Part shown: in pieces, positions 14,604-30,612 of the stretch
Layout: every line of letters starts with the position of its first letter
How positions within the stretch are numbered: position 1 is the first letter of the stretch
Source of the DNA: a candidate division KSB1 bacterium
GTDB lineage: Bacteria > Zhuqueibacterota > Zhuqueibacteria > JANLFK01 > Oleimicrobiaceae
DNA length: 64,000 bases
Assembly: GCA_024655945.1 (NCBI GenBank)
Contig: JANLFK010000006.1
Span: 124,001 to 188,000 of the forward strand
Reading direction: 5' to 3'
Notes under the pieces: generated by a model
Told to the model about the DNA's origin: nothing
The model's database searches: none
What the model saw: only the letters and a program-made list of their open reading frames with translations
Program-made: the position numbers and the translations under genes

Positions 14604-17600
14604 CTACTTGGCCAGCAGAAGCTTGACCTTCTGCACTTGTCCAGCGTGCGAGAGCGCGGCGACGTAAACGCCGCTTCCCAGCGGCTCTCCACGACCGTCT
14701 CGGCCGTCCCACACCACCTTGTGGCGACCGGCCGTCTGCATCTGGTCGCAGAGCTCGGCAATGAGCTGGCCCCTCACGTTGTAAATCGCCAGCCTCACCC
14801 AGCCAGCCGCGGGCAGCAGGTACTCCAACACCGTCTCCGGATTGAACGGGTTCGGATAGTTCTGCAGAAGCTCAAGCCGCTGCGGGATGGCGGTGTCGGC
14901 TACCTGCACGGCACTCTTCTTGCGTGCCGCGAGGGTGAGATAACACAGCTGTTTTGTTCTGACATACAGCTTGTACTCGCTTGCCGCCACCACGGGCATC
15001 CGTGACCACACCCCCTGTCGGCTGGAGTAGCGGTAGCAGGGGATGTCGATGGCCCTTGCTACGCCCGCCTCACTGAGCTGGTAGGCGGAGAACTCGATGG
15101 CCACGGTGATCGAATCGGTAAACTCCAGACCTTCCGGGCCGAGGTAGTGGTACAGGTCGATCACCTTGAGGCTCTCCGGCAATGCCGGCGGATGCCAGAT
15201 GAAGCCCACCTCGATGGGCACCGGCGCGGCCAAGGCACCGGACGGGATATGCAATTCAGTTCCGGTCTGTTCCGAGACGACCTCGCCGCCAAGCTGAGTG
15301 ACCGTCTTTCTGACCATCACAAAGGCAGTATCCTCGCATGCCAAAAAGCTGAGGGTGGTGTCCAGCCGACCCAGGTGATACCCGAGGTCGGAGCACCTGA
15401 CGTGGACGGTGACCGGCGCATTTCTGGCGTACGGGACACGCGGGCGGTAGTCCACCGTGTATCTGTCCCCGACCATGAGGGCCGAAACCCTGCCATTGGT
15501 CTGGTCAACCCCAGCGCGCAGCACCGCAAGGCCATCCACCTCTACGTCCAAGGAGCTCGCATCAATGCCACCGGTCCGCCCTTGGAGGGCCAAGTACACG
15601 GAGGCGTTTCTCGGCACGCCGACGGCCCCCGTCGCGGGGTAGGAGCACACCAGAAGGGGTGGTGCGTACTGGCCGACACCGAAGTTGGCGGTCACCGCCA
15701 TCGGCCCATCCATGAAGACTATCGCCGGGTTTTGTGCGCCTTGCAAGTCATCCGTCCATCCCCAGAACGCATAGCCTCCTCCCTGGTTCGGCGAAGCGGC
15801 GACGGAAACTTGGCTCCCAGCGCCAAACCACTCTCCCGGAGGTGCCGGGGTAACGCTGCCACCCTCAGGCGGATTGCTCCGCGTAGTCAAGTAGTGCTGC
15901 AGCAGGAAAGTGGCCACATAGGCAGAGACATCGTTGACCACTACCTCATGACTCTGTTCGCCCCCGTCGCTCCACGATTGGAAAACGTACCGCGTGCCGG
16001 AGGCTACGCTCTGCGGCGAGGGCGCGGCGATTGTGTGCCGGCTTCCGGTCGGCCAGGAGAAGCTCTGCGGCGCAACGTACGAGGCACCGTCGACCACAAT
16101 CTCTCGACCTTCCGGCACGGTGCTGAGGAGAATCTGCCTCAGCACGGCAAAGTTCGCGGTGATATTCAGTGGGCGGTTCACCACCACGGTGGCTGGATTC
16201 GTGAGGCCCACGAGGTCACCCGACCAGCCGCCCCAGACGTACCCCTGGTTTGGCGTCGCGGCAAGCACCACGGTGGTACCTTGCGCATACCACCCGCCTG
16301 GTGGCGCAGGCACCAGCGTCCCGCCGGCCTCCGGCGATCTGGCCAGGCTCAGGTAGTACTCCGTGGCAAAGCGGGCAGTGTAGAGCGCTTCTCCCGCCAC
16401 GACCACGTTATGGCTCTGCGCACCACCATCACTCCAACTGGAGAACAGGTAGCGTACACCAGGGGCTCCTGCCTGCGGTGACTGCACCGCAATCGTATGG
16501 GTTGAACCGACCGCCCACGCAAAATCCGCGGGCGCGGCGTAAGAGACGCCATCTACCACGACGGTCAGCCCGGTTGGGTCGGTGGTTATCCGCACGTGAC
16601 CAGGAGGTGTAAAGTTTGCGGTGACGCTCTTGGGAGCGTTCATGGTCAGCGAAGTCGGATTGGCACTGCCAGAGAGCGCACCCGACCAGCTCGCAAAGGT
16701 GTAACCGCCGCCGCCGTTGGGTGTGGCACTCACCGTGACCACCGCCATGCTGTCGCACCAGAGGCCCGGTGGCTCAGGCACCATGCTCCCGCCGCCAGCC
16801 GGACTGACCGCAGTGGTCAGGCGGTATTGGGTCTTCCACAGGGCGGTCTCGGTGATGGGATTGTTCACCGCCACACTCGCCAGCGTGTCCGTGCCGGTGT
16901 AAGAGCCTGCCCCGGTGCCCGTCCACCGCACAAATGCCCGGCGCACGCCGCCGTTAACGATAACCACACCCGGCGCTACTCCGAACTGCGCCGTGCTGCC
17001 CTGGGGATACCAGCCCTGGCCGGAAGGCGTGCCATAAGGCGAGGTCACACTCAGATAGTGCTCCGTGGCCCAGGAAGCGACCACGCTCTTTGGCGCGTCC
17101 ATGCGCAAGGAGTCGGCAGCATTGGCGCCACTGTAGTCTCCTGACCAGCCGGTGAACACATGGCGAGTGGCGCCATGCACCTCAGGCGTGGTGACGCCAA
17201 AACGCGCCATCGAGCCTGCATCGTACCACCCCTGCCCTGCGGGCGAACCATGAGGTGAGGCAACCGCCAGGTAGTACTGAGTACGCCAGTTTGCCTGTTC
17301 CTGAATGGGGTTGTTCATGACCACGGTGGCGACCGCGTTCGGCCCAGTGTAGGAACCGGCGCCACTCCCCGTCCAACCAAGCAAGAGGCGCCTGGTGCCC
17401 GGAGCGCTGGTGTCTGGCGTAGTCACGCCGAATGTAGCTGAACTCCCGGCAGCATACCATCCGGCGCCAAACGGAGCACCGTAGGAGGACACGATGGTCA
17501 GCTCATGCTCCGTCACAAACTGGGCAGTCAGCGTCTGGTTCGAAGCGGGCACAGTTATCGCATGAGCCTGCGCCCCTCCGTCGCTCCAGGCGTTGAATAC

Positions 17601-19910
17601 ATGCCGTGTACCAACTCCCGCTTGCTGCGGAGACGGGGCCGACAGCGTGTGAGAGGAGCCGCGAATCCAGGTAAACATCTGCGGCGCAACGTACGGCTGG
17701 CCGTCCACCACCACTTCCAGCCCTGGCGGCGTAGTGGCCACCGTAATCTGCTGGGTGAAAACCGAAATGACCAGATTCAACGAGTCCACCGCCGCTGTGG
17801 AGAAAACCATCGAGCCTCTCCCATAGCCGGCGCCACCATCTCGCACCTCCACGAGAAGGGTCTCACCAGGCGCCCACGTATGCGGAAAGTTCTCGCACTG
17901 AATCCAATAGGTCCCTCCGCTATAGCCGCAGCCGGCCGAACTCTGGGTGAGCACCTCACTGGGGTAGTTCGTCTTGAACGCAGCGAACGTGGCGGTCGGC
18001 GGAATGCTGCCGTCCGGGTAGCGCACTTTGCCTGCAACCCTGTGCGGCGTGATCGTCGCGGTAAACTCGACGGCAGCCCCTGGCACCGCAGCACAGGTGG
18101 CGCGCACCGTTTGCGTCAGGCCCACGCTCCCCATGACGAAGTGAGCCGAGGCAATACCCTCGCGGTCAGTGGAAACGGGCTGCCACTCGAGAAAACGTCC
18201 GTTGCCGGTGAGCACCGTGAAGGTAACCTCTGCCCCAGCCACCTTCTTGCCATATTGGTCAGTGACCTTAACTCGGAAAGGCGCAGGCAGCAGGATGTTC
18301 CCTGGCCCTTGCTGGCCATTACCATCTACCAACTGGAGCTGCGCCGGCTTGGTGAAGTACAACTTAGTGTTTGCGGGAATACTGCGCGCCCGCAGCGTTG
18401 TGCTATCCAGCATCACAATTTTGACATCGACCGTGTCGCGTTGCGCCAGGCCAAAGTGCAGAACGTAGTCGTCCTGGCAGAGGTAGCCGTAGGCGCTGAT
18501 CATCTGTCGATAGCCGACCAGGTGGCCCATGTCGTCGCAATAGCCCTTGTCAAACACCCACACTTTCGTGCCGATGCCCCCCTTGTCCCCCTTCGGGCCG
18601 CGGCCATACACCTTGAGCCAGCGGTTGGTGGTCTGGGTGTCGTTGCGCAGCAGACGATTGGAGTAGTTCGCGTTGGCACCCTTGTTGGCGTCAGCAAAGT
18701 AGATGTCAAGGTCGCCGTCGCCATCCACGTCACAGACCGCCCCGCCACGGGGGTCGTAGGCGTAAAGCTCGGCACCGGTGTTTGATAGGGAGACGAAACT
18801 ACCGCCGTCATTGCGGTAGAAGAGACAGCGATTCGGTGAACTCTCGCTGCCATAGTGCTGCGGGATGTAAAGGTCAAGGTCGCCGTCATTGTCGGCGTCG
18901 AAGGCCAAGACGCTGTAGCCCCTCCCAGCGATGTTCAGCGTGTTGGTGACGTCATCAAAATAGCCGTCGCCGCGATTGCGGTACACGAACACCTTACCTA
19001 AGTACCGGTTCTGGCCTATGACAAAGAGGTCCAGATCGCCATCGTTGTCATAGTCGACGAAGGTGGCGCCGTCGTTCCAGAAGGAGCCACGCACCCCCCG
19101 CTCCCCGGCTTGCTCGGTGAAAGTGTTATCGCCATTGTTGATGAAGAGGAGGTTGCACGCCGCGCCCCAGCGACCACCGTGAGTATCATCGCGCCTGCAG
19201 ATGTAGACATCGATGTCGCCGTCATTGTCCACGTCGGCTGCCGTCACCCCTTGCTGGCCGAAGCCATCCTGGGTCACATTCTTGAGGCCCCAGTCCACCA
19301 GTTGGAAGGTGCCATTCTTCTGATTAGTGTAGAATTCATTGGGTTCGGCCTGGTTATCCGGCAGTCCGGCCCCCACGCAATACAAATCAAGGTAGCCGTC
19401 CTTGTTGGCGTCAAAAGCCACCACGCCCCGCGTGCTATAGGGCCAGTCCTTCAAACCTGCCGAAACGGTGATGTCGTCGAAGTAGGCGTTGCCCCTGTTG
19501 CGGTAGAGCCGATTCCGGGCGGTCGTGTTGCCGTTGTACACGTCCCAATCGTCATCGTTGTCCAAATCGAAGAAGACGATTCCATGGCTGCCGATGCCGT
19601 AGGAGTCATAGAGCCCACGTCGCGAGGCTTCCTCCGTGTAGGCCGACCCGGATTTGCTGATGTACAGCACCTCCGGGTAAGAGGAGCTACCCTCGTCCGC
19701 CTGGGAGACATAGATCTCCGGCAGACCATCGCCGTTAATGTCGGCCATGGCCACCCCGTGCCCGTACACGGACACGCCATTGACCAGGTAGCCCTTGACC
19801 GCTTTGGCCGCGGTAATGTCGGTAAAGCGGATCTGCTGCGCGCCGGCCCCAGCTACCCAGGCACAGAGCAGAATTGCCCCCGCCTTCAGCAAACGGCTCT
19901 TGGAGTCCAT
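14604..19910 (-). CDS. Giant secreted FG-GAP/UnbV, Big_1, PEGA/InlB-repeat surface protein with type IX-style sorting domain
   Basis: The 1768-residue protein starts with a signal peptide (cleavage near AGAQQ). About residues 30-430 hold FG-GAP/VCBS calcium-type repeats (DxDxDGDxD motifs such as DVDNDGDIDVYI), followed by an ASPIC/UnbV domain with WLKVYGRGPKGDKGGIGTKV. A Big_1-like Ig domain comes next (VKVTDQYGKKVAGAEVTFTV). From about 700 to 1380 there are nine W-S/T-centred modules of divergent InlB type; three carry a PEGA-like front (EVVVDGQPYVAPQMFTW) and end in WSDGG. Further Ig and ZU5-like segments lead to the C-terminal domain with LLQNYPNPFNPETVLEYL and GSGVYVAAL, typical of type IX secretion sorting or FlgD-like domains. 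GGAAGGCAGGG precedes the ATG at 19910. It is probably a cell-surface or released adhesive or binding protein; the ligand is unknown. Confidence 0.9.
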   Translation of the reverse strand: MDSKSRLLKAGAILLCAWVAGAGAQQIRFTDITAAKAVKGYLVNGVSVYGHGVAMADINGDGLPEIYVSQADEGSSSYPEVLYISKSGSAYTEEASRRGLYDSYGIGSHGIVFFDLDNDDDWDVYNGNTTARNRLYRNRGNAYFDDITVSAGLKDWPYSTRGVVAFDANKDGYLDLYCVGAGLPDNQAEPNEFYTNQKNGTFQLVDWGLKNVTQDGFGQQGVTAADVDNDGDIDVYICRRDDTHGGRWGAACNLLFINNGDNTFTEQAGERGVRGSFWNDGATFVDYDNDGDLDLFVIGQNRYLGKVFVYRNRGDGYFDDVTNTLNIAGRGYSVLAFDADNDGDLDLYIPQHYGSESSPNRCLFYRNDGGSFVSLSNTGAELYAYDPRGGAVCDVDGDGDLDIYFADANKGANANYSNRLLRNDTQTTNRWLKVYGRGPKGDKGGIGTKVWVFDKGYCDDMGHLVGYRQMISAYGYLCQDDYVLHFGLAQRDTVDVKIVMLDSTTLRARSIPANTKLYFTKPAQLQLVDGNGQQGPGNILLPAPFRVKVTDQYGKKVAGAEVTFTVLTGNGRFLEWQPVSTDREGIASAHFVMGSVGLTQTVRATCAAVPGAAVEFTATITPHRVAGKVRYPDGSIPPTATFAAFKTNYPSEVLTQSSAGCGYSGGTYWIQCENFPHTWAPGETLLVEVRDGGAGYGRGSMVFSTAAVDSLNLVISVFTQQITVATTPPGLEVVVDGQPYVAPQMFTWIRGSSHTLSAPSPQQAGVGTRHVFNAWSDGGAQAHAITVPASNQTLTAQFVTEHELTIVSSYGAPFGAGWYAAGSSATFGVTTPDTSAPGTRRLLLGWTGSGAGSYTGPNAVATVVMNNPIQEQANWRTQYYLAVASPHGSPAGQGWYDAGSMARFGVTTPEVHGATRHVFTGWSGDYSGANAADSLRMDAPKSVVASWATEHYLSVTSPYGTPSGQGWYPQGSTAQFGVAPGVVIVNGGVRRAFVRWTGTGAGSYTGTDTLASVAVNNPITETALWKTQYRLTTAVSPAGGGSMVPEPPGLWCDSMAVVTVSATPNGGGGYTFASWSGALSGSANPTSLTMNAPKSVTANFTPPGHVRITTDPTGLTVVVDGVSYAAPADFAWAVGSTHTIAVQSPQAGAPGVRYLFSSWSDGGAQSHNVVVAGEALYTARFATEYYLSLARSPEAGGTLVPAPPGGWYAQGTTVVLAATPNQGYVWGGWSGDLVGLTNPATVVVNRPLNITANFAVLRQILLSTVPEGREIVVDGASYVAPQSFSWPTGSRHTIAAPSPQSVASGTRYVFQSWSDGGEQSHEVVVNDVSAYVATFLLQHYLTTRSNPPEGGSVTPAPPGEWFGAGSQVSVAASPNQGGGYAFWGWTDDLQGAQNPAIVFMDGPMAVTANFGVGQYAPPLLVCSYPATGAVGVPRNASVYLALQGRTGGIDASSLDVEVDGLAVLRAGVDQTNGRVSALMVGDRYTVDYRPRVPYARNAPVTVHVRCSDLGYHLGRLDTTLSFLACEDTAFVMVRKTVTQLGGEVVSEQTGTELHIPSGALAAPVPIEVGFIWHPPALPESLKVIDLYHYLGPEGLEFTDSITVAIEFSAYQLSEAGVARAIDIPCYRYSSRQGVWSRMPVVAASEYKLYVRTKQLCYLTLAARKKSAVQVADTAIPQRLELLQNYPNPFNPETVLEYLLPAAGWVRLAIYNVRGQLIAELCDQMQTAGRHKVVWDGRDGRGEPLGSGVYVAALSHAGQVQKVKLLLAK

Positions 19911-19986
19911 CCCTTCCTGCCTTCCGAACCTCATCCAGAAACGTACTTCGCCACGCTCTCGCGGGCGCGCGACAGGGATAGAATCG

Positions 19987-21458: not shown

Positions 21459-21785
21459 GCACTATTTGCTCCCTCCGGTCGCGCCGGAATCGGCTTGCTT
21501 TTCAGGCGCCCTTTGGCTACATTTTCAGCAAAGCGATGGCCGGGTGAGTCAAGAGAGCGGGTGCGTGCTCCTCAGTGACCGGCTTATCCGCAGGGCGACC
21601 AGTTGGCTGGCGGAGGGAACGATCTGCGGCTGCGGTACACCCCCGGCAAAGGGGGTGGGCGCACAGTGTCCGCACCAAACATGTCGAGTCTGTCCAGCAT
21701 CGGCGGCGGAATGCCGCCAGCCGCGTGCCTGTGGTGTGGCGGCCAGACGCAGGCCGGACAAACCCATCCCTGCGAAAATCTTTGC

Positions 21786-21812
21786 AAACCTTTTGCCGCT
21801 GGCTGTGTCTAA
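21786..21812 (+). promoter_or_regulatory. Candidate self-regulated ECF promoter
   Basis: AAACC and TCTAA are spaced by 17 bp, matching the general form of ECF promoters (AAC in -35, a short -10), and end 24 bp before the sigma-factor start. Many ECF genes control themselves. Inference only. Confidence 0.3.
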
Positions 21813-21836
21813 GAATGCAGAAAGCGAAGGAACTCC

Positions 21837-22391
21837 ATGGACAGCGAAGAGAGCGCACTCATCCGCAAGGCGCAACAGGGCGAGCGCCAGGCGTTCGACC
21901 AGATAGTGCGACGCTATGACCAGCGCGTGCTGCGACTGGCGTACGACATATGCGGAAACTTGGAGGACGCCAAAGACATCTACCAGGAGGTCTTCTTGCG
22001 GGTGTTCCGCCAGATCGCCGGCTTTCGCTTTCAGAGTGAGTTCACCACCTGGCTCTACCGGGTTACCCTCAACTGCGCCATTAGCTACCGCAGGCGCCGA
22101 CGGCCGCCCGCTCCTTCGCTTGAGACCTGGGAAGGGGCCAAGTCCCTGGTGCACCGGGGATCGGACCCCCAGCAAGAGGCAGAGGGGGTGGACTTCAGGA
22201 TGCAACTGGAACATGCCCTCGGCTCTCTTTCACCCAAAGAAAGGTCGGTGTTTGTGCTTCGCCACTATCACGGTCACAAACTGACGGAAATTGCCGAGAT
22301 TCTGGACACGAAAATAGGGACGGTGAAGAACTACCTGTTTCGTGCGACGCAGAAGATCCGGCAACAGCTGGTCAGTTACCCTCGCGACTGA
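21837..22391 (+). CDS. ECF-type RNA polymerase sigma factor (RpoE-like)
   Basis: The protein has 184 residues. Region 2 shows FDQIVRRYDQRVLRLAYDICG, then DIYQEVFLRVFRQ and FTTWLYRVTLNCA. Region 4 shows LSPKERSVFVLRHYHGHKLTEIA and a helix-turn-helix ending GTVKNYLFRATQKIRQ. The two domains are joined by a linker of average length. The ATG at 21837 follows AAGGA. The anti-sigma gene starts 22 bp after the stop and the DUF4097 gene follows, giving a three-gene unit in which envelope events could release this factor. Confidence 0.95.
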   Translation: MDSEESALIRKAQQGERQAFDQIVRRYDQRVLRLAYDICGNLEDAKDIYQEVFLRVFRQIAGFRFQSEFTTWLYRVTLNCAISYRRRRRPPAPSLETWEGAKSLVHRGSDPQQEAEGVDFRMQLEHALGSLSPKERSVFVLRHYHGHKLTEIAEILDTKIGTVKNYLFRATQKIRQQLVSYPRD

Positions 22392-22413
22392 GGAGAAAAG
22401 GACGCGCTGAGCC

Positions 22414-23325
22414 ATGAAACCATGCCGAAAATACCGCCGACTGCTTGCTCTCCATGCCTCAGGCGATCTGTCCCCCAAGGAAGAAAAGCTCCTGCGTCTT
22501 CACGTGCAGGCATGTCCGGCGTGTGCAGCCGAAATGGAGGAGTTGCGAGTCCTTGTTGGCCGCTTCCAGGAACGCAATGGCCTGCAAGTCGAGCAAACCT
22601 TGCTGGACGAGTGCCGCGCAGAGCTAGGGGATCGACTTCGCATGCAGCGCCTCATGGAGACTCGCCGCCTGGCATGGGGAGCGCCTTGGCGTGGCTGGCG
22701 GCCCGCCATGAGAGTGGCAGCTGCCGTTTGCCTCCTGCTGGCAGGCGTATTCGTAGGGCGCTATCTCCTCCCCTCGCAACCGCGCTCCTTGGCCGAGGCG
22801 CCCCTGTTGGAGCGAAGTGAGTTAGATGTTCGCGGCTTCTCGTACGATCCCGAATCTGGGCAGGTTGAGGTACAGCTCGGCGACCGGGTGCTGCGGGGAG
22901 CCCCTTCTGATCCGCGCATTCGGGCACTCCTGGTGCACACGCTCACGGAGGCGGGGAACCCTGGCCTGCGGCTGCGCACAGTGAAAGCACTCGCCTCGCC
23001 CCCTCTTGGCGACGAAGAGGTGGAGGCCGCCTTGATTGTTGCTCTGGAAAAGGACCCAAACACCGGAGTGCGGCTCCAGGCGATCAGGGTGCTCAGAGAC
23101 TTTCCTTTGAGCAGGCCCATCAAACAGGCGCTTATCCGGGTACTGCTCACCGACCGCAATCCCAGCCTTCGTAAGGAGGCGATTGACGCGTTGAGCAGGC
23201 GTGCCTTTGACCCCGACATTGCCCCAACCCTGAGCGGGTTGGCAAAGAGCGATACGAGCGCCTACGTGCGCCGCAAGGCCGGCAAGGCCTTGGAGCGACG
23301 GGAGACGTCGCCCACCAGTCGTTAG
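22414..23325 (+). CDS. Anti-sigma factor: zinc-finger (zf-HC2), one TM helix, HEAT-like outer domain
   Basis: Residues 1-45 carry the anti-sigma zinc motif H30-x3-C34-x2-C37 (HVQACPAC). One transmembrane helix lies at about 99-119 (MRVAAAVCLLLAGVFVGRYLL), so the last 180 residues sit outside the cytoplasmic membrane. That part contains four or five helical repeats of HEAT/PBS-lyase type (for example NPGLRLRTVKALAS, NTGVRLQAIRVLRD, NPSLRKEAIDALSR, SAYVRRKAGKALER). By analogy with known systems the cytoplasmic finger would hold the ECF factor, and the HEAT domain would sense an envelope partner. The adjacent DUF4097 protein is the natural candidate. Confidence 0.88.
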   Translation: MKPCRKYRRLLALHASGDLSPKEEKLLRLHVQACPACAAEMEELRVLVGRFQERNGLQVEQTLLDECRAELGDRLRMQRLMETRRLAWGAPWRGWRPAMRVAAAVCLLLAGVFVGRYLLPSQPRSLAEAPLLERSELDVRGFSYDPESGQVEVQLGDRVLRGAPSDPRIRALLVHTLTEAGNPGLRLRTVKALASPPLGDEEVEAALIVALEKDPNTGVRLQAIRVLRDFPLSRPIKQALIRVLLTDRNPSLRKEAIDALSRRAFDPDIAPTLSGLAKSDTSAYVRRKAGKALERRETSPTSR

Positions 23326-23351
23326 AACCAGAAAGCACAGGAGAATCGACC

Positions 23352-24692
23352 ATGAAACCACATCCGCAGCGCTTTGTCGTGGCTGCCCTTCTGCTCTGCC
23401 TGGCCTTGACGGTCATACCCCGTGCTTCCATGGGCCAGAAGCTGAGTAAGCAAGGGCGACGTTGGGTGGCCGAAATCGAGACTACGTTTGCTGTCCAGCC
23501 TGGCGGGCAGCTGAGAATGCACGACATCAGCGGTGACGTCGGCGTCCGCACCTGGGACAAGCCGGAGGTCTACATCCTTGAGCGCCGGCGGATGGACGTC
23601 TTCACCAAGGAAGAAGCTGAGGAGGCCCTCAAGCGCGCCAAAGTCGGCTACCGCCACGTGGGAAACACCGTCGAGGTGGACGGCAGCGAGTTCCTGCGCC
23701 GCTGGATGGAGAGCAGCTTCGAGGTGCACGTGCCGGTGCGCTTTGACGTCGAGGTCAGAACCAGCGGAGGAGACCTGGCGCTGAGCGACCTCAAGGGGAC
23801 CATCAAGCTCAGAACTGCCGGCGGTGACATTGCGGTGCGGCAGACCGTCGGCGATGCCGAGCTCAGCACCTCCGGGGGCGACATCACCATTGATGGCAAC
23901 GACGGCGTACTGAGCGCCTCCACGGCAGGGGGAGATATTCGCGCCCTGCGCATCACGCAACGGGCAAAGCTCACCACCTCAGGCGGCAACATCGAGCTGG
24001 GCGAGATCGGCGGCACGGTGGAGGCCTCCACGGCCGGGGGCGACATCGTCGTGCGCGACTGCAAGGGGAGTGCGCGCGTCAAGACCTCCGGTGGGGACAT
24101 CACCCTGGTCAACGTGGGCGGCGAAGCGGATGCTACCACTTCGGGCGGCGATATTGAAGTTCGTGGCTCCACAGGAGCGGTCAAGGCCTCTACCTCGGGC
24201 GGCGATGTGGTCCTCTTCGACATCGGCGGGCCGATCAGCGCCAAGACCGCTGGCGGCGACATCCGCTCTCAAGGGGTCAAAGGCGGAGTCCAGGCGAGCA
24301 CCTCTGGCGGGGACATCAACCTGCGGGGAGTGCAGGGCTTCATCGAGGCCTCCACCGCAGGCGGCGACATCTACGGCGAAATGACGCTGGCCGACTTTTC
24401 CCAGGATCACCATGTGCGCATGAAGACCTCCGGGGGAGAGGTGACGCTGGTCATCCCTGAACGCTTGCCTGCATCTGTGCATGCCGTGCTGAAGATCACC
24501 GATCGGGCCACGGACAAATACGAGATTCTCTCCGATTTTGCGCTGACCATCAAAGAGGAACAGGGTACCGAGTGGGGTCGACGGATCGCGAAGGCGATCA
24601 TCGCCACCGGTGAGCTCAACGGCGGGGGAGACCCCATCGAGATCGAGACTACCAACGGCAACATTCGCCTCAAGAAGCTGCGCAAGCCTTAG
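23352..24692 (+). CDS. Secreted DUF4097-type beta-solenoid with twelve exact 18-residue repeats
   Basis: A signal peptide (about 1-29, ending ASMGQ) leads to a 446-residue protein. Residues 136-351 consist of twelve back-to-back 18-residue units, each starting at 136 + 18n and centred on T-[SA]-G-G-D-[IVL], for example STAGGDIVVRDCKGSARV. This is the pattern of DUF4097/adhesin-like right-handed solenoids. A degenerate thirteenth unit (KTSGGEVTLVIPERLPAS) follows, and a C-terminal cap ends in TTNGNIRLKKLRKP. It is the third gene of the sigma/anti-sigma unit, 26 bp after the anti-sigma stop. It probably lies in the periplasm or at the outer membrane; no enzymatic residues are evident. Confidence 0.9.
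   Translation: MKPHPQRFVVAALLLCLALTVIPRASMGQKLSKQGRRWVAEIETTFAVQPGGQLRMHDISGDVGVRTWDKPEVYILERRRMDVFTKEEAEEALKRAKVGYRHVGNTVEVDGSEFLRRWMESSFEVHVPVRFDVEVRTSGGDLALSDLKGTIKLRTAGGDIAVRQTVGDAELSTSGGDITIDGNDGVLSASTAGGDIRALRITQRAKLTTSGGNIELGEIGGTVEASTAGGDIVVRDCKGSARVKTSGGDITLVNVGGEADATTSGGDIEVRGSTGAVKASTSGGDVVLFDIGGPISAKTAGGDIRSQGVKGGVQASTSGGDINLRGVQGFIEASTAGGDIYGEMTLADFSQDHHVRMKTSGGEVTLVIPERLPASVHAVLKITDRATDKYEILSDFALTIKEEQGTEWGRRIAKAIIATGELNGGGDPIEIETTNGNIRLKKLRKP
23757..24404 (+). repeat. Twelve tandem 54-bp coding repeats
   Basis: The repeat is in phase with the reading frame and shows no unit of unequal length. DNA identity between units is limited mainly to the codons for T-S/A-G-G-D-I, so it is an old protein repeat rather than a recent expansion. 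Confidence 0.85.
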
Positions 24693-24978: not shown

Positions 24979-27090
24979 CTACTTCTCAAACCACGCGGGG
25001 TCAACAGGGACGTTTAGCCGCACCTCTTTGAACACGGTCTCTGACTGCTTCTTCCCACCGACGCTGACCACCGACCGGAACGGGATCCAGGCGTAGCCTA
25101 ATTGCTTGTAGTCAGAGAGAACTTCTTCGTGTTGGGCCGGGCCCTGCTCGCTCACGTCCTGGTAGATGGTCCCCACCGGCCACATAGTCTTGGGGTCGGC
25201 CAGGATGTGGAACGGCGCCCGATCGTTCAGCACGAGCAGGTCGATGGCCTTGGCACCGGCGAACTCCCGTTCCCCAAGGTACTGCACCTTGTAGTCCGGC
25301 CAGTGCCCCAACACCCAGACGAGGTCACGCGCTAAGCTGGCCTTGTAGCTCTCCACTTGCGCCTGCGGCATCGGCATGGTCCCCTGGGCGGTCTGCATCC
25401 ACCCTTCATCGCCTTTGACCACCATGGTCACCGGGCCCATGGGAGTGGTCAGCACGACGCGCATGCGGTCAGGATAGACGACGAGCAGCTCACCGGCAAG
25501 GGACATCTCACCTCCAGGCGTAGCCATGGTGAGTTCGACAGTGGCCTGGAGGTTAGCGATTTTCTCCAAGACGTCGGGGCTGCCGCAGGCCTCACTGACG
25601 AGCTCGATAAGGTTGCGGCCCTGAGCCAAAGTCAGCGGCGTCGGCGGCGGGATCTTCTCCGCCGGAGCCGGGATGGTGATATCGATGACGTTCACCTTCC
25701 CTAGCGCTGCCAGCGGCTCGTCGAAATCCTCTTCCTTGCCAACCACCAGGATGCGCACTTTGTCCGGGCGCAAGTACTCCTTTGCCACGCGCACAATGTC
25801 GGCCTTGCTCACCTTCTCGACCCCCTGTCTGGTCCTCTCCATAAAGTCCGGAGGGTAGCCGAAATAGGCGTAGGTGAGCAGGCGGTTGACAATTTTCGCC
25901 TTGGAATCGAACTCGAACACAAAGCCGTTGAGGAAGCTATCCTTGGCGCGCGCCAGCTCCTCGTCGCTCACCTCGGCGGTGCGCAGCTTTTCGAGCTCTT
26001 CCAAGATGAGGCGAATAGCCTTGACCGTGCTCTGCGACTTGGTCTGGCAGCCGCAGCTAAAGATGCCTGGATGGTCATAGCCCGCACCGAACCTTCCCCA
26101 CACCGAGTAGGCCAGACCCTCTTCGGTGCGCACCCGCTTGAACAATCGCTCCAGCGATAGGATTTCGTTCATCACCAGCCACGCCGGATAATCGGGGTTG
26201 CGGAGCTCGCCCCCGATGTGACCGAGCATGATGTTGCTCTGGTTCACGTCCGGCTTGCGCACATAGCTGACGGAAAAGTCGTAGCGGTACTGTACCGCCG
26301 GCACAGGTGGCACCTGCTCGCGGCCCGGTTGCCAGGCGGCAAAGGCCTTCTCCAACTTGCGTCGCATCTCCTTGGCGGAAAAGTCGCCCCACACGGCCAT
26401 CAGCACATTGTTGGGGAAGAAGAAGCGTCGGTGGAAGGCGACGATGTCATCCCGCGAAATCGCGTCGATGGTGGCGTACTCGGGGTGCCGCGCATAGGGA
26501 CTCTGTGCACCGTAAATGAGCTTCTCAAACTCCCGATTGGTGATTTGCCCCACGTCGTCATTGCGGCGGGCAATGGCGGAGCGCTGCTCGATCTTGGCCA
26601 GCTCGATCTTCTCGTCGGGAAAGAGCGGATGCATCAACAACTCGGCCATCACCTCAAGGCCAGTGGCGATGTCCTCCTTGAAGACCGACACGGAGACATA
26701 GCCGGAATTCTCGCCGATGGATGACTCGACGCTGGCGCCGAGTTTTTCCAAGAGGCCATCGAGCTCGTCACCGGGGAATTTGGCGGAGCCTCCGGTGCGC
26801 AAGACCGTGCCGGTAATGGCCGCCAGTCCCACCTTGTCCGCAGGCTCATACACCGACCCGGTGCGAATCATTGCTCGCAGATCGATGGTGGGGTAGTCGT
26901 GGTCTTCCACAAGAAAGACCTTCATGCCGTTTTTCAAAGTCACGCTTTCCACCGGAGGTAAGGTGATCTGGCGAAGGGGCGGGTGCACGAACTGCTCTTT
27001 CGGGTTCTTTTGCGCCCAAAGCGCGCTTATCCATACGCCGCTGGCCAGCAGGGCAGCGGCAAAGGTGAACAGGTACTTCCGATTCTTCAT
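24979..27090 (-). CDS. Inactive-type M16 peptidase homologue with C-terminal LolA-like domain
   Basis: The protein has a signal peptide (cleavage near SALWAQ) and the two-lobed M16 fold, but the zinc motif HxxEH is absent: the aligned stretch reads GLAAITGTVLRTGG. Residues after the first lobe (FHRRFFFPNNVLMAVWGDFS) are typical of M16. It is therefore like the non-catalytic subunit of mitochondrial processing peptidase-type pairs. The last 200 residues look like a LolA/outer-membrane lipoprotein-sorting fold (GEMSLAGELLVVYPDRMRVV, later KAIDLLVLNDRAPFHILADP). The ATG at 27090 has GAGGGACGAG upstream. The active partner is the next gene upstream, 37 bp away. Confidence 0.85.
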   Translation of the reverse strand: MKNRKYLFTFAAALLASGVWISALWAQKNPKEQFVHPPLRQITLPPVESVTLKNGMKVFLVEDHDYPTIDLRAMIRTGSVYEPADKVGLAAITGTVLRTGGSAKFPGDELDGLLEKLGASVESSIGENSGYVSVSVFKEDIATGLEVMAELLMHPLFPDEKIELAKIEQRSAIARRNDDVGQITNREFEKLIYGAQSPYARHPEYATIDAISRDDIVAFHRRFFFPNNVLMAVWGDFSAKEMRRKLEKAFAAWQPGREQVPPVPAVQYRYDFSVSYVRKPDVNQSNIMLGHIGGELRNPDYPAWLVMNEILSLERLFKRVRTEEGLAYSVWGRFGAGYDHPGIFSCGCQTKSQSTVKAIRLILEELEKLRTAEVSDEELARAKDSFLNGFVFEFDSKAKIVNRLLTYAYFGYPPDFMERTRQGVEKVSKADIVRVAKEYLRPDKVRILVVGKEEDFDEPLAALGKVNVIDITIPAPAEKIPPPTPLTLAQGRNLIELVSEACGSPDVLEKIANLQATVELTMATPGGEMSLAGELLVVYPDRMRVVLTTPMGPVTMVVKGDEGWMQTAQGTMPMPQAQVESYKASLARDLVWVLGHWPDYKVQYLGEREFAGAKAIDLLVLNDRAPFHILADPKTMWPVGTIYQDVSEQGPAQHEEVLSDYKQLGYAWIPFRSVVSVGGKKQSETVFKEVRLNVPVDPAWFEK

Positions 27091-27127
27091 TGCTCGTCCC
27101 TCGTAGCTATCGTGCAGTGGCTGTTTG

Positions 27128-28642
27128 CTATTGCGCAACGCTCTTTTCCGGCACGATCTCGCCGATGGTGCGATTGCGTGTCGTCAGATAAGTCTTTGCC
27201 ACCCGTTGCACATCGGCCGCCGTGACCGCCTCGACACGATTGAGCTGCTCAAAGGTGGCGCGCCAGTCGCCCAACAGCGCCTCGGCGTTGGCCAGCATCT
27301 CGGCCATGCCTGCATTGGACTTCATCCTGTCCAGGAGTCCCTTCTTGCTCATGCGTTTGTACTTGGTCAGTTCCTCCTGGCTCACCGCAGTCTCCTTCAG
27401 CTTGTCGATTTCGGCATCAATCACCGCTAAGCACTCGACGGAGGTGTGGTCCTTGGCAGGGATGGCGTAGAAGGCAATGAGGTTGGGGTACTTGTCGCCC
27501 GGGAAGCCGTTGAAACAACCAGTTTGCACGGCAATCTTGCGCTTCTTGACCATTTCCTCGTATAGCCTGCTGGAGCGGCCTATGCCGACGATGTTGGCCA
27601 GAGCGTCAAGAGGATAGTGGTCCGCGTGGCAGATTGACGGACGATGGTAGCCCACAACCAGAACCGGTTCCGACTGCGCCACCACCTCGACGCGGCGCTG
27701 CCCCCATTGCTCTGGCTCTTGGGTACGCGGGCCCTCCGGTTTGGGGCCACTGGGGATGCGCCCAAAGTACAGCTCCGCCAGGCGGAAGGCCTCCTCGGCA
27801 TCGACATCACCGACAATGGCCACCACCATGTTGCTGGGGATGTAAAACTTCCGGAAGTAGGCCTCCACGTCCCTTCGGGTGATGCGCTCCAGGTCGGACA
27901 TGTGGCCGATAACTTCGTGGTGATACGGATGTGCCTTGAAGGCCGTGGCCAAAAAATCCTCGATGAGCCGCCCTATAGGCCTCGTCTCCAAGCGCAACCG
28001 ACGTTCCTCCATGACCACGTCGCGCTCTTTGTAGAACTCGCGGAACACCGGGTTGAGGAAGCGATCGGAGGTGAGCGCCATCCAGAATTCCAGCCGGTTG
28101 GAAGGCAGAGAGTTGATGTACTGGGTGGCGTCGTTGCTGGTGTAGGCGTTCACGGCGCGATCGCCTTCCCTGCGCAGCAGGTCCACAAACTCATCGGTGA
28201 CCACGTACTGCTTGGCCTCCGCCTCAAGGGTGGCAAATTGGTGTTGCAGCTTGCCAATTTTCGCCGAGTCGGGACGGGGCGCATGCCGTTCCCGCTGCAG
28301 CTCTTCGTAGACGGAGTCGAGGCGGGCCAATAGCACAGACTCCTGCGCATAGTCGGTGGTGCCCACGGTGGTGCTCCCCTTGAAGGCCATGTGTTCCAGC
28401 AGGTGGGAGATGCCGGTGATGCCGTAGGATTCGTTGGCGCTGCCCACGTCGGCGTAGACATGGAAGGAGGCCACCGGCGCATCTCGGCGTTCCATGACGA
28501 TGACCTTCATGCCATTGCTGAGCACCTTGTCTTTGACCTTGCTCTTCATGGCCTCAAGACTCTGGGAGTAGAGGCTCCCAGTCATGAGGCCGAGGAGCAA
28601 GCATGCGGCCGCTGCCGCGCCTCCCAGGCGGGAAAGTCGCAT
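27128..28642 (-). CDS. Active-type M16 (insulinase-like) zinc metallopeptidase
   Basis: A secreted peptidase of 504 residues with a signal peptide. The inverted zinc motif is H80-L-L-E-H84 (GISHLLEHMAFKG), with the distal Glu in the ERDVVMEERRLRLE region. A charged helical insertion of about 60 residues (SVYEELQRERHAPRP and onward) lies between them, as in other FCB-type M16 proteins. The C-terminal lobe shows VAIVGDVDAEEAFRLAELYFG. AGGAGGAAG precedes the ATG at 28642. It lies directly before the inactive homologue, so the two likely form a heterodimer in the periplasm. Confidence 0.92.
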   Translation of the reverse strand: MRLSRLGGAAAAACLLLGLMTGSLYSQSLEAMKSKVKDKVLSNGMKVIVMERRDAPVASFHVYADVGSANESYGITGISHLLEHMAFKGSTTVGTTDYAQESVLLARLDSVYEELQRERHAPRPDSAKIGKLQHQFATLEAEAKQYVVTDEFVDLLRREGDRAVNAYTSNDATQYINSLPSNRLEFWMALTSDRFLNPVFREFYKERDVVMEERRLRLETRPIGRLIEDFLATAFKAHPYHHEVIGHMSDLERITRRDVEAYFRKFYIPSNMVVAIVGDVDAEEAFRLAELYFGRIPSGPKPEGPRTQEPEQWGQRRVEVVAQSEPVLVVGYHRPSICHADHYPLDALANIVGIGRSSRLYEEMVKKRKIAVQTGCFNGFPGDKYPNLIAFYAIPAKDHTSVECLAVIDAEIDKLKETAVSQEELTKYKRMSKKGLLDRMKSNAGMAEMLANAEALLGDWRATFEQLNRVEAVTAADVQRVAKTYLTTRNRTIGEIVPEKSVAQ

Positions 28643-28665
28643 TGCACTTCCTCCTGTGTTTGTCC

Positions 28666-30612
28666 TCACTGCACCTTTTCCAAGAGAATTATCGTGTTCC
28701 GGCGATGCACAAAGTCGTCGTACACAGCCTTGTAGAGGCCGTATTTCTCCACCGGGATGGTTTGCCGCCGCAAGAGGACGCTCTTTTTCTCCACCACCAC
28801 GTAGGGATCACTTGCGACGGTCTGGTAATCGAGGGCCCATGAGCCGAACTCCTTTTCCACGGCGACCTTGGGCGGCAGGTAGGCTACGCGAATGCCCGCC
28901 GGCAGCCGGAAGCGCCGCTCGGACTGGAAGCTACAGTTCATCCCGATGTGGAAGGGGTACTTGCGCTCCTGCAGCGTGGGGCGATAGGGAGTCGCCTCCA
29001 AGAAGTCAAAACCCACCGGCGGAAGGGGGCAAATCATCATATCTCCCTCCGCCACGGCGTAGTCGGGCGAGTCGAAAGCCCAGGTCAATTGCGATGGAGC
29101 GGTGAGGTCCTTCAAGTTGGAAAGCGACCGCGTCGTGATCGCGGTCCCTTCGCCGACTCTGCTTGCCGCCTGATCGAAGAGTTGCTCCAGCTCCTTTGGG
29201 GTGAGATCCTTGACGCGGGAGCGCAGCCGGCGGTCAAAAGCGCCATCGAGGCGAAACTCCTCGCTGCCGCGCAGCGCGCCGTCGCCTGCGAAAGTGTACC
29301 CGCCGCGCAGCAGGAAGCTATTGACCTCGGCAGAGAATGGCGGCACGGTGACCAGCTCGCCGCCCTTTTCGGTGACGGCCAAGGCCTGCGTGCCGTCGCC
29401 GCCTGGGAAGTAGCCGTAACGACAATCTTCCGCAAAGGGGTCAAGCCACAGAACTTGGCCGCTCCGCAGCACAGCGCGCACGTAGATGGCGTCGAGCTGC
29501 TTCGGCGTAGGGATGTCGGACAGCAAGGCAGCGCCGTTGCGCTTGACAAAGGCGACGTCGGCGCGCACCCCCACCGCGCCGAGCAGAGCGGTGAGTAGGG
29601 TAGCTTTGTCCCGCCAGTCGCCGTACATGTTCTCCAACACCTGGGCGGCTGGATGGGGCGCATAGCCCGTCACCCCCAGGGGCAAGCTCACGTTGCGCAC
29701 GCTGCTCGCCAGCCAGAGGTAGACCGCCCGCACTTTGTCTTCCTCGCTACCGAGGCCCTTAGTGAGCTCGGCAGCTTTGGCCTGGATGGCCAGGTTCGGC
29801 TGCACTTTCTCACGGAACTGCTCCCCGAGCCACATTCCCAAGGCTTCCCATGAGGGGCAGGAGCTGTACAGGAGCCGCGGCTCCATCTCCGGGGGCATGT
29901 TGGGCTCGGCAATGATTTGTGGCGCCTTCTCTACACGCCATGTGTAGGCCTTCTTGCCGCCCTTTTCTGAGACCAGCGGCTCTGGCACATCACCGGTAGC
30001 CTTGTAGGAAAACGCAAGCCCTTTGGGCACCACGACCGTGTACTCTTTGACCATGATGGGCTCGTCGCCCTGGAAAGTGGCTATGCCCCAGAAGTACTTG
30101 CTGCCGGTCTCATCGGCTCTGTGATAGGTTCGCCGCTTGAGCTCAAGGCACATGTTCGGCGCCACTTCCGGGTAGGAAATGACCCTCTGGTGGAAATCGG
30201 CATAGACAGCGGCATCCGCAAACTCGGGGGGGGTGATGTCGTTGATTGCGTCCTTCTCCACCGGGATCGGCGCCCCGATGCGTCTGCGCGTCTGCGCCAG
30301 GAGCACCTCCATGCTATCGGTCTTCAAGTTGTAGGTCCGCTTTAGGTCGGCAAACTTGGTCTTGCCGCGGTCGCGCAGGATTTTCACCAGGAAATGCTCG
30401 CTGGTCACCGCGCTGCCGTCGCTGTTCACCTCATGCACCACCTGCTCCAAGAGGACCACCGCACCGGCCTCCGGAAACTCCGAGAAGCGTGGCGACTCGC
30501 GCACCATTCTGCGTATGTCGTCGTCGGTATACTGCGTTTGGGCGGCGGCCATGGCAGCGAGGCACAGCCCAAGGAGCGCCCACAACAAGTGCCGCATCGA
30601 ATGCCTGGTCAT
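28666..30612 (-). CDS. DUF3857/transglutaminase-like secreted protein with lost catalytic residues
   Basis: The protein of 648 residues has a signal peptide, a DUF3857 beta-rich N-terminal half and a transglutaminase-like half. The catalytic Cys motif, normally YGDCKDKATLL, reads YGDWRDKATLL with Trp at position 333. The usual His is also missing, the corresponding stretch being YVRAVLRSGQVLWLDP. It is thus probably a binding or scaffold protein rather than an enzyme. The ATG at 30612 follows AAGGA; an ATG 18 bp upstream has no ribosome site. The active M16 gene starts 23 bp after it, and the related active-looking paralogue is just upstream. Confidence 0.87.
   Translation of the reverse strand: MTRHSMRHLLWALLGLCLAAMAAAQTQYTDDDIRRMVRESPRFSEFPEAGAVVLLEQVVHEVNSDGSAVTSEHFLVKILRDRGKTKFADLKRTYNLKTDSMEVLLAQTRRRIGAPIPVEKDAINDITPPEFADAAVYADFHQRVISYPEVAPNMCLELKRRTYHRADETGSKYFWGIATFQGDEPIMVKEYTVVVPKGLAFSYKATGDVPEPLVSEKGGKKAYTWRVEKAPQIIAEPNMPPEMEPRLLYSSCPSWEALGMWLGEQFREKVQPNLAIQAKAAELTKGLGSEEDKVRAVYLWLASSVRNVSLPLGVTGYAPHPAAQVLENMYGDWRDKATLLTALLGAVGVRADVAFVKRNGAALLSDIPTPKQLDAIYVRAVLRSGQVLWLDPFAEDCRYGYFPGGDGTQALAVTEKGGELVTVPPFSAEVNSFLLRGGYTFAGDGALRGSEEFRLDGAFDRRLRSRVKDLTPKELEQLFDQAASRVGEGTAITTRSLSNLKDLTAPSQLTWAFDSPDYAVAEGDMMICPLPPVGFDFLEATPYRPTLQERKYPFHIGMNCSFQSERRFRLPAGIRVAYLPPKVAVEKEFGSWALDYQTVASDPYVVVEKKSVLLRRQTIPVEKYGLYKAVYDDFVHRRNTIILLEKVQ

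Follow-up and report, generated by a model that had tools for sequence, protein, structure and literature searches.

Toastrack proteins are widespread; in Gram-positive bacteria they have been connected with envelope stress and with resistance to daptomycin. In Escherichia coli, the RpoE-RseA-RseB system places a sigma factor, a membrane anti-sigma factor and an exported protein in one operon, and the sigma factor is autoregulated. Bacillus SigW, paired with the single-pass anti-sigma RsiW, has dozens of targets. The core SigW regulon includes the gene yvlB (PMC3498285). In Enterococcus, liaXYZ is the main target of LiaR. LiaX acts on the outer side of the membrane and keeps the regulator in check; loss of LiaX, or of its C-terminal region, activates LiaFSR (PMC11601895). 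A survey of PSP systems found Toastrack proteins in operons with transcription regulators, including one context with a linked sigma factor. Neither HEAT anti-sigmas nor ECF trios are mentioned in the main text of that survey, whose prediction is that Toastrack domains are intracellular (PMC11237479).

We analysed a 64,000-nucleotide stretch of DNA from a candidate division KSB1 bacterium (hereafter, the window). Three genes on one strand encode an ECF sigma factor, a HEAT-domain anti-sigma factor and an exported solenoid, with intergenic gaps of 22 and 26 nt. The original prediction described positions 21786-24692 as a unit with these parts, and open reading frames, Pfam matches and structural models agree with its coordinates and contents. 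The features are as follows.

21783-21812, plus strand: predicted ECF-type autoregulatory promoter, conserved in 41 of 41 loci and matched by the promoter profile
21783-21794 and 21806-21812, plus strand: predicted -35 block TGCAAACCTTTT and -10 block TGTCTAA of this promoter, with an N11 spacer between them
21826-21831, plus strand: probable ribosome-binding site GAAGGA, judged from sequence
21837-22391, plus strand: ECF sigma factor, 184 aa, regions 2 and 4 (Pfam PF04542, 1.9e-16; PF08281, 5.3e-16)
22414-23325, plus strand: membrane anti-sigma factor, 303 aa (Pfam zf-HC2 and HEAT_2; alignment of 35 orthologues)
22423-22527, plus strand: predicted cytoplasmic zinc anti-sigma domain, residues 4-38 (PF13490, 4.8e-7; RsiW match of the orthologue profile)
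22714-22770, plus strand: predicted single transmembrane helix, residues 101-119 (hydropathy 2.19; helix 97-118 in the model)
22774-22806, plus strand: predicted disordered juxtamembrane linker, residues 121-131 (pLDDT below 50), a candidate site for the first protease cut
22828-23307, plus strand: predicted extracytoplasmic domain, with a beta element (139-162) and then HEAT-type helix pairs (167-298) (model; alphaRep/HEAT profile matches)
23352-24692, plus strand: exported beta-solenoid of the Toastrack/LiaG family, 446 aa (LiaG NCBIfam, 5.3e-9; model pLDDT 91.6; Foldseek 4QRK, 3PET)
23352-23435, plus strand: predicted N-terminal signal peptide of ~28 residues, without a lipobox cysteine (hydropathy and alignment)
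23739-24386, plus strand: array of ~18-residue coils with T[SA]GG(D/N) turns, residues ~130-345 (alignment; strand pattern in the model)

The trio looks like an undescribed counterpart of the Gram-positive envelope-stress circuits that control Toastrack proteins. Like LiaFSR-LiaX, it would join a membrane stress regulator to a Toastrack-domain protein as the main target. However, LiaFSR is a two-component system with LiaF, whereas the KSB1 module uses an ECF sigma factor and a HEAT anti-sigma. As with SigW-RsiW and yvlABCD, an ECF sigma and a single-pass anti-sigma with an RsiW-like N-terminus would control a Toastrack protein; in Bacillus, by contrast, the yvl genes are unlinked to sigW-rsiW. 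The arrangement of sigma, anti-sigma and exported protein in one operon recalls RpoE-RseA-RseB, as does sigma autoregulation, which we predict here from the promoter. To our knowledge, RseB is not a solenoid, and HEAT domains are absent from both RsiW and RseA. Searches of the open literature found no description of HEAT anti-sigmas, of DUF4097 proteins with ECF factors or of KSB1 ECF systems; an ECF group number may exist for this arrangement. The parts are known. Their combination and the taxonomic depth at which it is kept appear to be new, as do the promoter and the regulon centred on Toastrack.

The sigma factor consists of Sigma70_r2 and Sigma70_r4_2 only, and has neither region 1.1 nor region 3, as defines an ECF factor. 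Against the SigW model it scores 117 bits, where the equivalog cut-off is 209; it is not, therefore, a SigW member. Upstream, the original prediction had noted a possible ECF promoter, AAACC-N17-TCTAA. This motif does start at 21786 and is the core of a longer conserved element, TGCAAACC[TA]TTT-N11-TGTCTAA. At least 15 of 19 positions of the element are matched upstream of the sigma gene in 41 of 41 same-class loci; shuffled regions, searched over a slightly different spacing range, reach 15 positions in 8 of 820 cases. All 36 sites spaced by N11 have AAC and GTC without variation, and the spacer sequence is not conserved. The predicted promoter is thus of the AAC/GTC type associated with autoregulated ECF factors, in all 41 loci. 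The proposed genome scan for AAACC/TCTAA fared differently from comparison between loci. The bare pattern occurs at chance level (1 match versus 2+3 for the reversed control), and it was comparison that revealed the conserved core.

The window's genome has a single promoter site at up to 3 mismatches, and the promoter profile gives one match (E 7e-4), the sole one at E<=5. Over 84,980 species genomes, the exact pattern has 26 matches, against ~7 expected by chance on our own rough estimate. Fifteen are in KSB1, and every one that could be checked lies directly before a trio sigma gene. Conversely, 10 of the 11 matches elsewhere are inside reading frames; the eleventh is L155. Extra promoter-like sites at 3 mismatches were set aside, being mostly at control level or within genes.

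In the window anti-sigma, the zf-HC2 zinc motif is C-x24-H-x3-C-x2-C (residues 4-38), which contains the H-x3-C-x2-C signature of class I zinc anti-sigma (ZAS) proteins. Positive residues precede the transmembrane helix (~101-119) and HEAT_2 follows it (E 3.6e-15). Hence, by the positive-inside rule, the HEAT domain is predicted to be periplasmic. The AlphaFold model, built from the orthologue alignment, has a pLDDT of 86.6. Positions 1-64 of the orthologue profile match the structure of RsiW bound to SigW (5WUQ; E 1.7e-5), and sequence profiles of the HEAT part match alphaRep/HEAT-type repeat structures. From gene order and the RsiW match, we infer that the protein binds and inhibits its cognate sigma factor. 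The predicted plan of a zinc finger inside, one helix and a HEAT domain outside therefore fits the window protein in its Pfam matches and model, but the zinc ligands vary between orthologues. The full set is kept in 23 of 35, so the family does not depend on metal binding. Separately, zinc ligands are lost, with the rest of the domain kept, in the trio anti-sigmas of L039, L043, L046, L047, L055, L057, L058 and L062.

The AlphaFold model of the solenoid, also from an orthologue alignment, is an uninterrupted beta-helix after an N-terminal hydrophobic segment. Together with the predicted signal peptide, this bears out the secreted repeat protein of the original prediction. Foldseek matched the model to 4QRK (1.8e-4), 3PET (3.1e-4) and 4OPW (0.027); TM-scores are low, as the query has about twice the length of the matched structures. 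The PSP survey identifies 4QRK as a Toastrack structure (mSystems 2024, PMC11237479). The beta-helix of the model agrees with the Toastrack fold of 4QRK and 4OPW, a single-strand right-handed beta-helix with a complex N-terminal region. The LiaG NCBIfam matches 31 of 31 solenoids, with the window protein scoring below the equivalog cut-off. Pfam PF13349 (DUF4097 'Toastrack') matches 14 of 31 orthologues (best 1.2e-26) and the LiaX model matches 15 of 31 weakly; the window protein is matched by neither. These matches mark the solenoid as a long member of the Toastrack (DUF4097/LiaG/LiaX-like) proteins. Unlike LiaX, it is much longer and has the beta-helix part alone, with no LiaX N-terminal domain as a separate module. 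It may work like LiaX, with a proposed feedback, and is not a member of that family. All 31 members open with an export-type hydrophobic segment, and an exported Toastrack runs against the published prediction of intracellular Toastrack domains. A second, shorter Toastrack gene (~330 aa) often lies behind the first in the trio operon and is elsewhere unlinked; loci with this gene include L034, L037, L044, L049, L053, L054, L059, L061, L065, L066 and L068.

The anti-sigma and the solenoid were each searched for in the same 60 same-class genomes of the KSB1 phylum. With the window's genome counted in, strong matches were found in 43 and 42 genomes, respectively. The two proteins thus occur in the same genomes, the sole exception being G046, whose contig ends within the anti-sigma. 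Several families include genomes that lack the pair. Every same-class locus uncut by a contig end reads sigma, anti-sigma, solenoid, and the solenoid adjoins the anti-sigma in 41 of 41 same-class loci and 9 of 9 loci from other KSB1 classes. In two of the latter (L212, L213) the sigma frame was masked by our frame filter, with the promoter in place. The same filter masked the sigma of L242 and the anti-sigma of L252 in Bacteroidota. In that phylum, a profile search found the anti-sigma in 39 of 296 sampled genomes, and the solenoid follows it directly in 20 of 20 fetched loci. The promoter lies in the same place and has diverged to ACAACC[TA]TTT-N-[AG]GTCTAA. In both phyla, the module couples a dedicated sigma factor with a long exported Toastrack protein. 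The trio anti-sigma was found in 0 of 199 Planctomycetota genomes, and a single-sequence search of genome contigs with the anti-sigma gave no match. An apparent loss of the trio in G002, of the same genus, was rejected. The solenoid match there (L134, G002:C66) stops at the contig end, at 14552 of 14555, which indicates an assembly break with the rest of the trio not assembled.

Conserved adjacency and one conserved ECF-type promoter bear out the claim that sigma, HEAT anti-sigma and exported solenoid form one unit, and a lack of conservation, named beforehand as grounds for abandoning it, did not occur. Shared ancestry could in principle preserve gene order between a regulator and a solenoid that are functionally unlinked, and all of the genomes compared are related. 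We consider this highly improbable, given that adjacency persists within KSB1 where anti-sigma identity is 23-38%, and also in Bacteroidota despite the diverged promoter, that the two genes are jointly absent from several families and that the same promoter precedes unlinked solenoids. As a separate observation, a second ECF sigma/anti-sigma pair lies directly upstream of the trio at L210, L212 and L213 in other KSB1 classes. It comes with an exported protein of ~390-440 aa, one of which was checked and had no Pfam match.

The sharp promoter exposes a predicted regulon in uncultured bacteria. In a profile search over 40 genomes, the trio ranks first in most carriers. Weaker matches precede six Toastrack paralogues unlinked to the trio (in G039, G035, G006, G028, G012 and G016), the distance to the start codon being 57 to 137 nt. 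From the numbers of hits, paralogues and bases, the rough chance expectation for these six is far below 0.1; Toastrack paralogues are enriched among promoter targets. Six of the seven promoter-bearing unlinked paralogues came from the promoter search itself, which biases the ratio, and among those chosen independently 1 of 4 bears the promoter (G027). Unlinked paralogues without the promoter are found in the trio-bearing genomes G029, G014 and G004. In G011, which lacks the trio, a paralogue shared with its congener G027 keeps a remnant of the site in which AAC has become AGC; this is one case and anecdotal. Matches also precede two DUF5916/CBM9 genes (G026, G029), and in 7 of 20 Bacteroidota loci the trio is immediately followed by DUF5916 homologues. 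Promoter-like sites were seen before a Zn_peptidase_2 gene in G030 (L309), with a gene of the same N-terminal sequence in G022 (L116), before a DUF2268 zinc-protease lipoprotein gene in G026 (L290) and before a MacB/FtsX permease gene in G007 (L293). On these sites, the three are possible further members of the regulon. We discounted as likely chance the matches that precede an asparaginase gene (L298) or L299 and those within genes.

These data point to the solenoid family as the main output of the sigma factor, so the solenoid may be an effector rather than, or as well as, a ligand; the original prediction did not raise this role. One account stops there. The solenoid would be an envelope-protecting or adhesive product of the regulon that the HEAT domain never touches, and the HEAT domain would sense something else, such as a misfolded protein, a lipid, a cell-wall fragment or a protease. 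The promoter targets mainly solenoid paralogues, as expected for effectors, and known DUF4097-type structures carry the name putative adhesins. In partial Mantel tests, the distance correlation between HEAT domain and solenoid (0.15) is nothing special beside that between cytoplasmic domain and solenoid (0.21). Yet a pure effector could relocate under the same promoter, and the first-type solenoid always adjoins the HEAT anti-sigma in assembled contexts. The HEAT anti-sigma and the solenoid are also absent together, and LiaX is a Toastrack protein that is both product and regulator (PMC11601895). We regard an output-only role as a serious contender that falls somewhat short of even odds.

Our preferred interpretation, to which we give a probability of about 0.62, is a self-contained envelope-stress switch that combines HEAT sensing, sigma release, the Toastrack solenoid as main product and effector, and probable feedback. 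Briefly, the RsiW-like cytoplasmic domain would hold the ECF sigma at the membrane while the HEAT domain on the outer side monitors periplasmic conditions. Stress would inactivate the anti-sigma, probably through regulated proteolysis with its first cut in the disordered juxtamembrane linker. Once free, the sigma factor would transcribe its own operon (sigma, inhibitor and solenoid) from the conserved promoter; where a species has a larger set, further Toastrack paralogues and DUF5916 proteins would be transcribed too. The exported solenoid, as main product, would act as an envelope effector, the likeliest candidate because it is the sole non-regulatory product common to all carriers. It would probably report back to the HEAT domain, closing the loop as LiaX does for LiaFSR. 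In the window's genome, where the promoter occurs once, the switch would control nothing beyond itself and a single solenoid. M50 site-2-type proteases are present in this genome; all 14 control genomes have them too, which makes this weak evidence.

The original prediction saw in the solenoid a possible ligand of the HEAT domain. Unbroken adjacency, shared presence and absence, a common predicted compartment and the LiaX precedent are all consistent with this. By analogy, then, the exported solenoid possibly acts back on the HEAT domain. Such a ligand could be protective, as RseB is for RseA, covering the juxtamembrane cleavage site and leaving under envelope stress. This variant fits the linker that is disordered in the model, the shared predicted compartment and the operon order of sigma, anti-sigma and exported protein, as in rpoE-rseA-rseB. 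Family and fold searches gave no RseB match, however, and the solenoid, unlike RseB, belongs to a set of several paralogues that share a promoter. We think the protective role unlikely. A broader form of our preferred switch is an ancestral ECF system of KSB1 and part of the Bacteroidota, in which envelope damage is sensed by direct contact between HEAT anti-sigma and Toastrack, the solenoid being main conserved product, sensor and feedback inhibitor. We put this forward tentatively, as a bolder claim with the balance of probability against it. If true, direct contact would make the module a diderm counterpart of LiaFSR-LiaX assembled from different regulatory parts. Whether Toastrack talks to its own regulator is testable in E. 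coli with three small genes.

A parallel set was seen at L135-L142 (G045, G050, G036, G026, G028, G007 and G023). Here, an ECF sigma and a ~280-aa zf-HC2 anti-sigma are followed by separate exported HEAT-repeat proteins (430-600 aa), so that HEAT is provided in trans and not within the anti-sigma. By eye, two neighbouring M16-type (insulinase-like) peptidase genes lie convergent with the trio in the window (24979-28669, minus strand). A long repeat protein, encoded at 14604-19934 on the minus strand, has a C-terminus resembling a type IX secretion sorting signal, again by eye.
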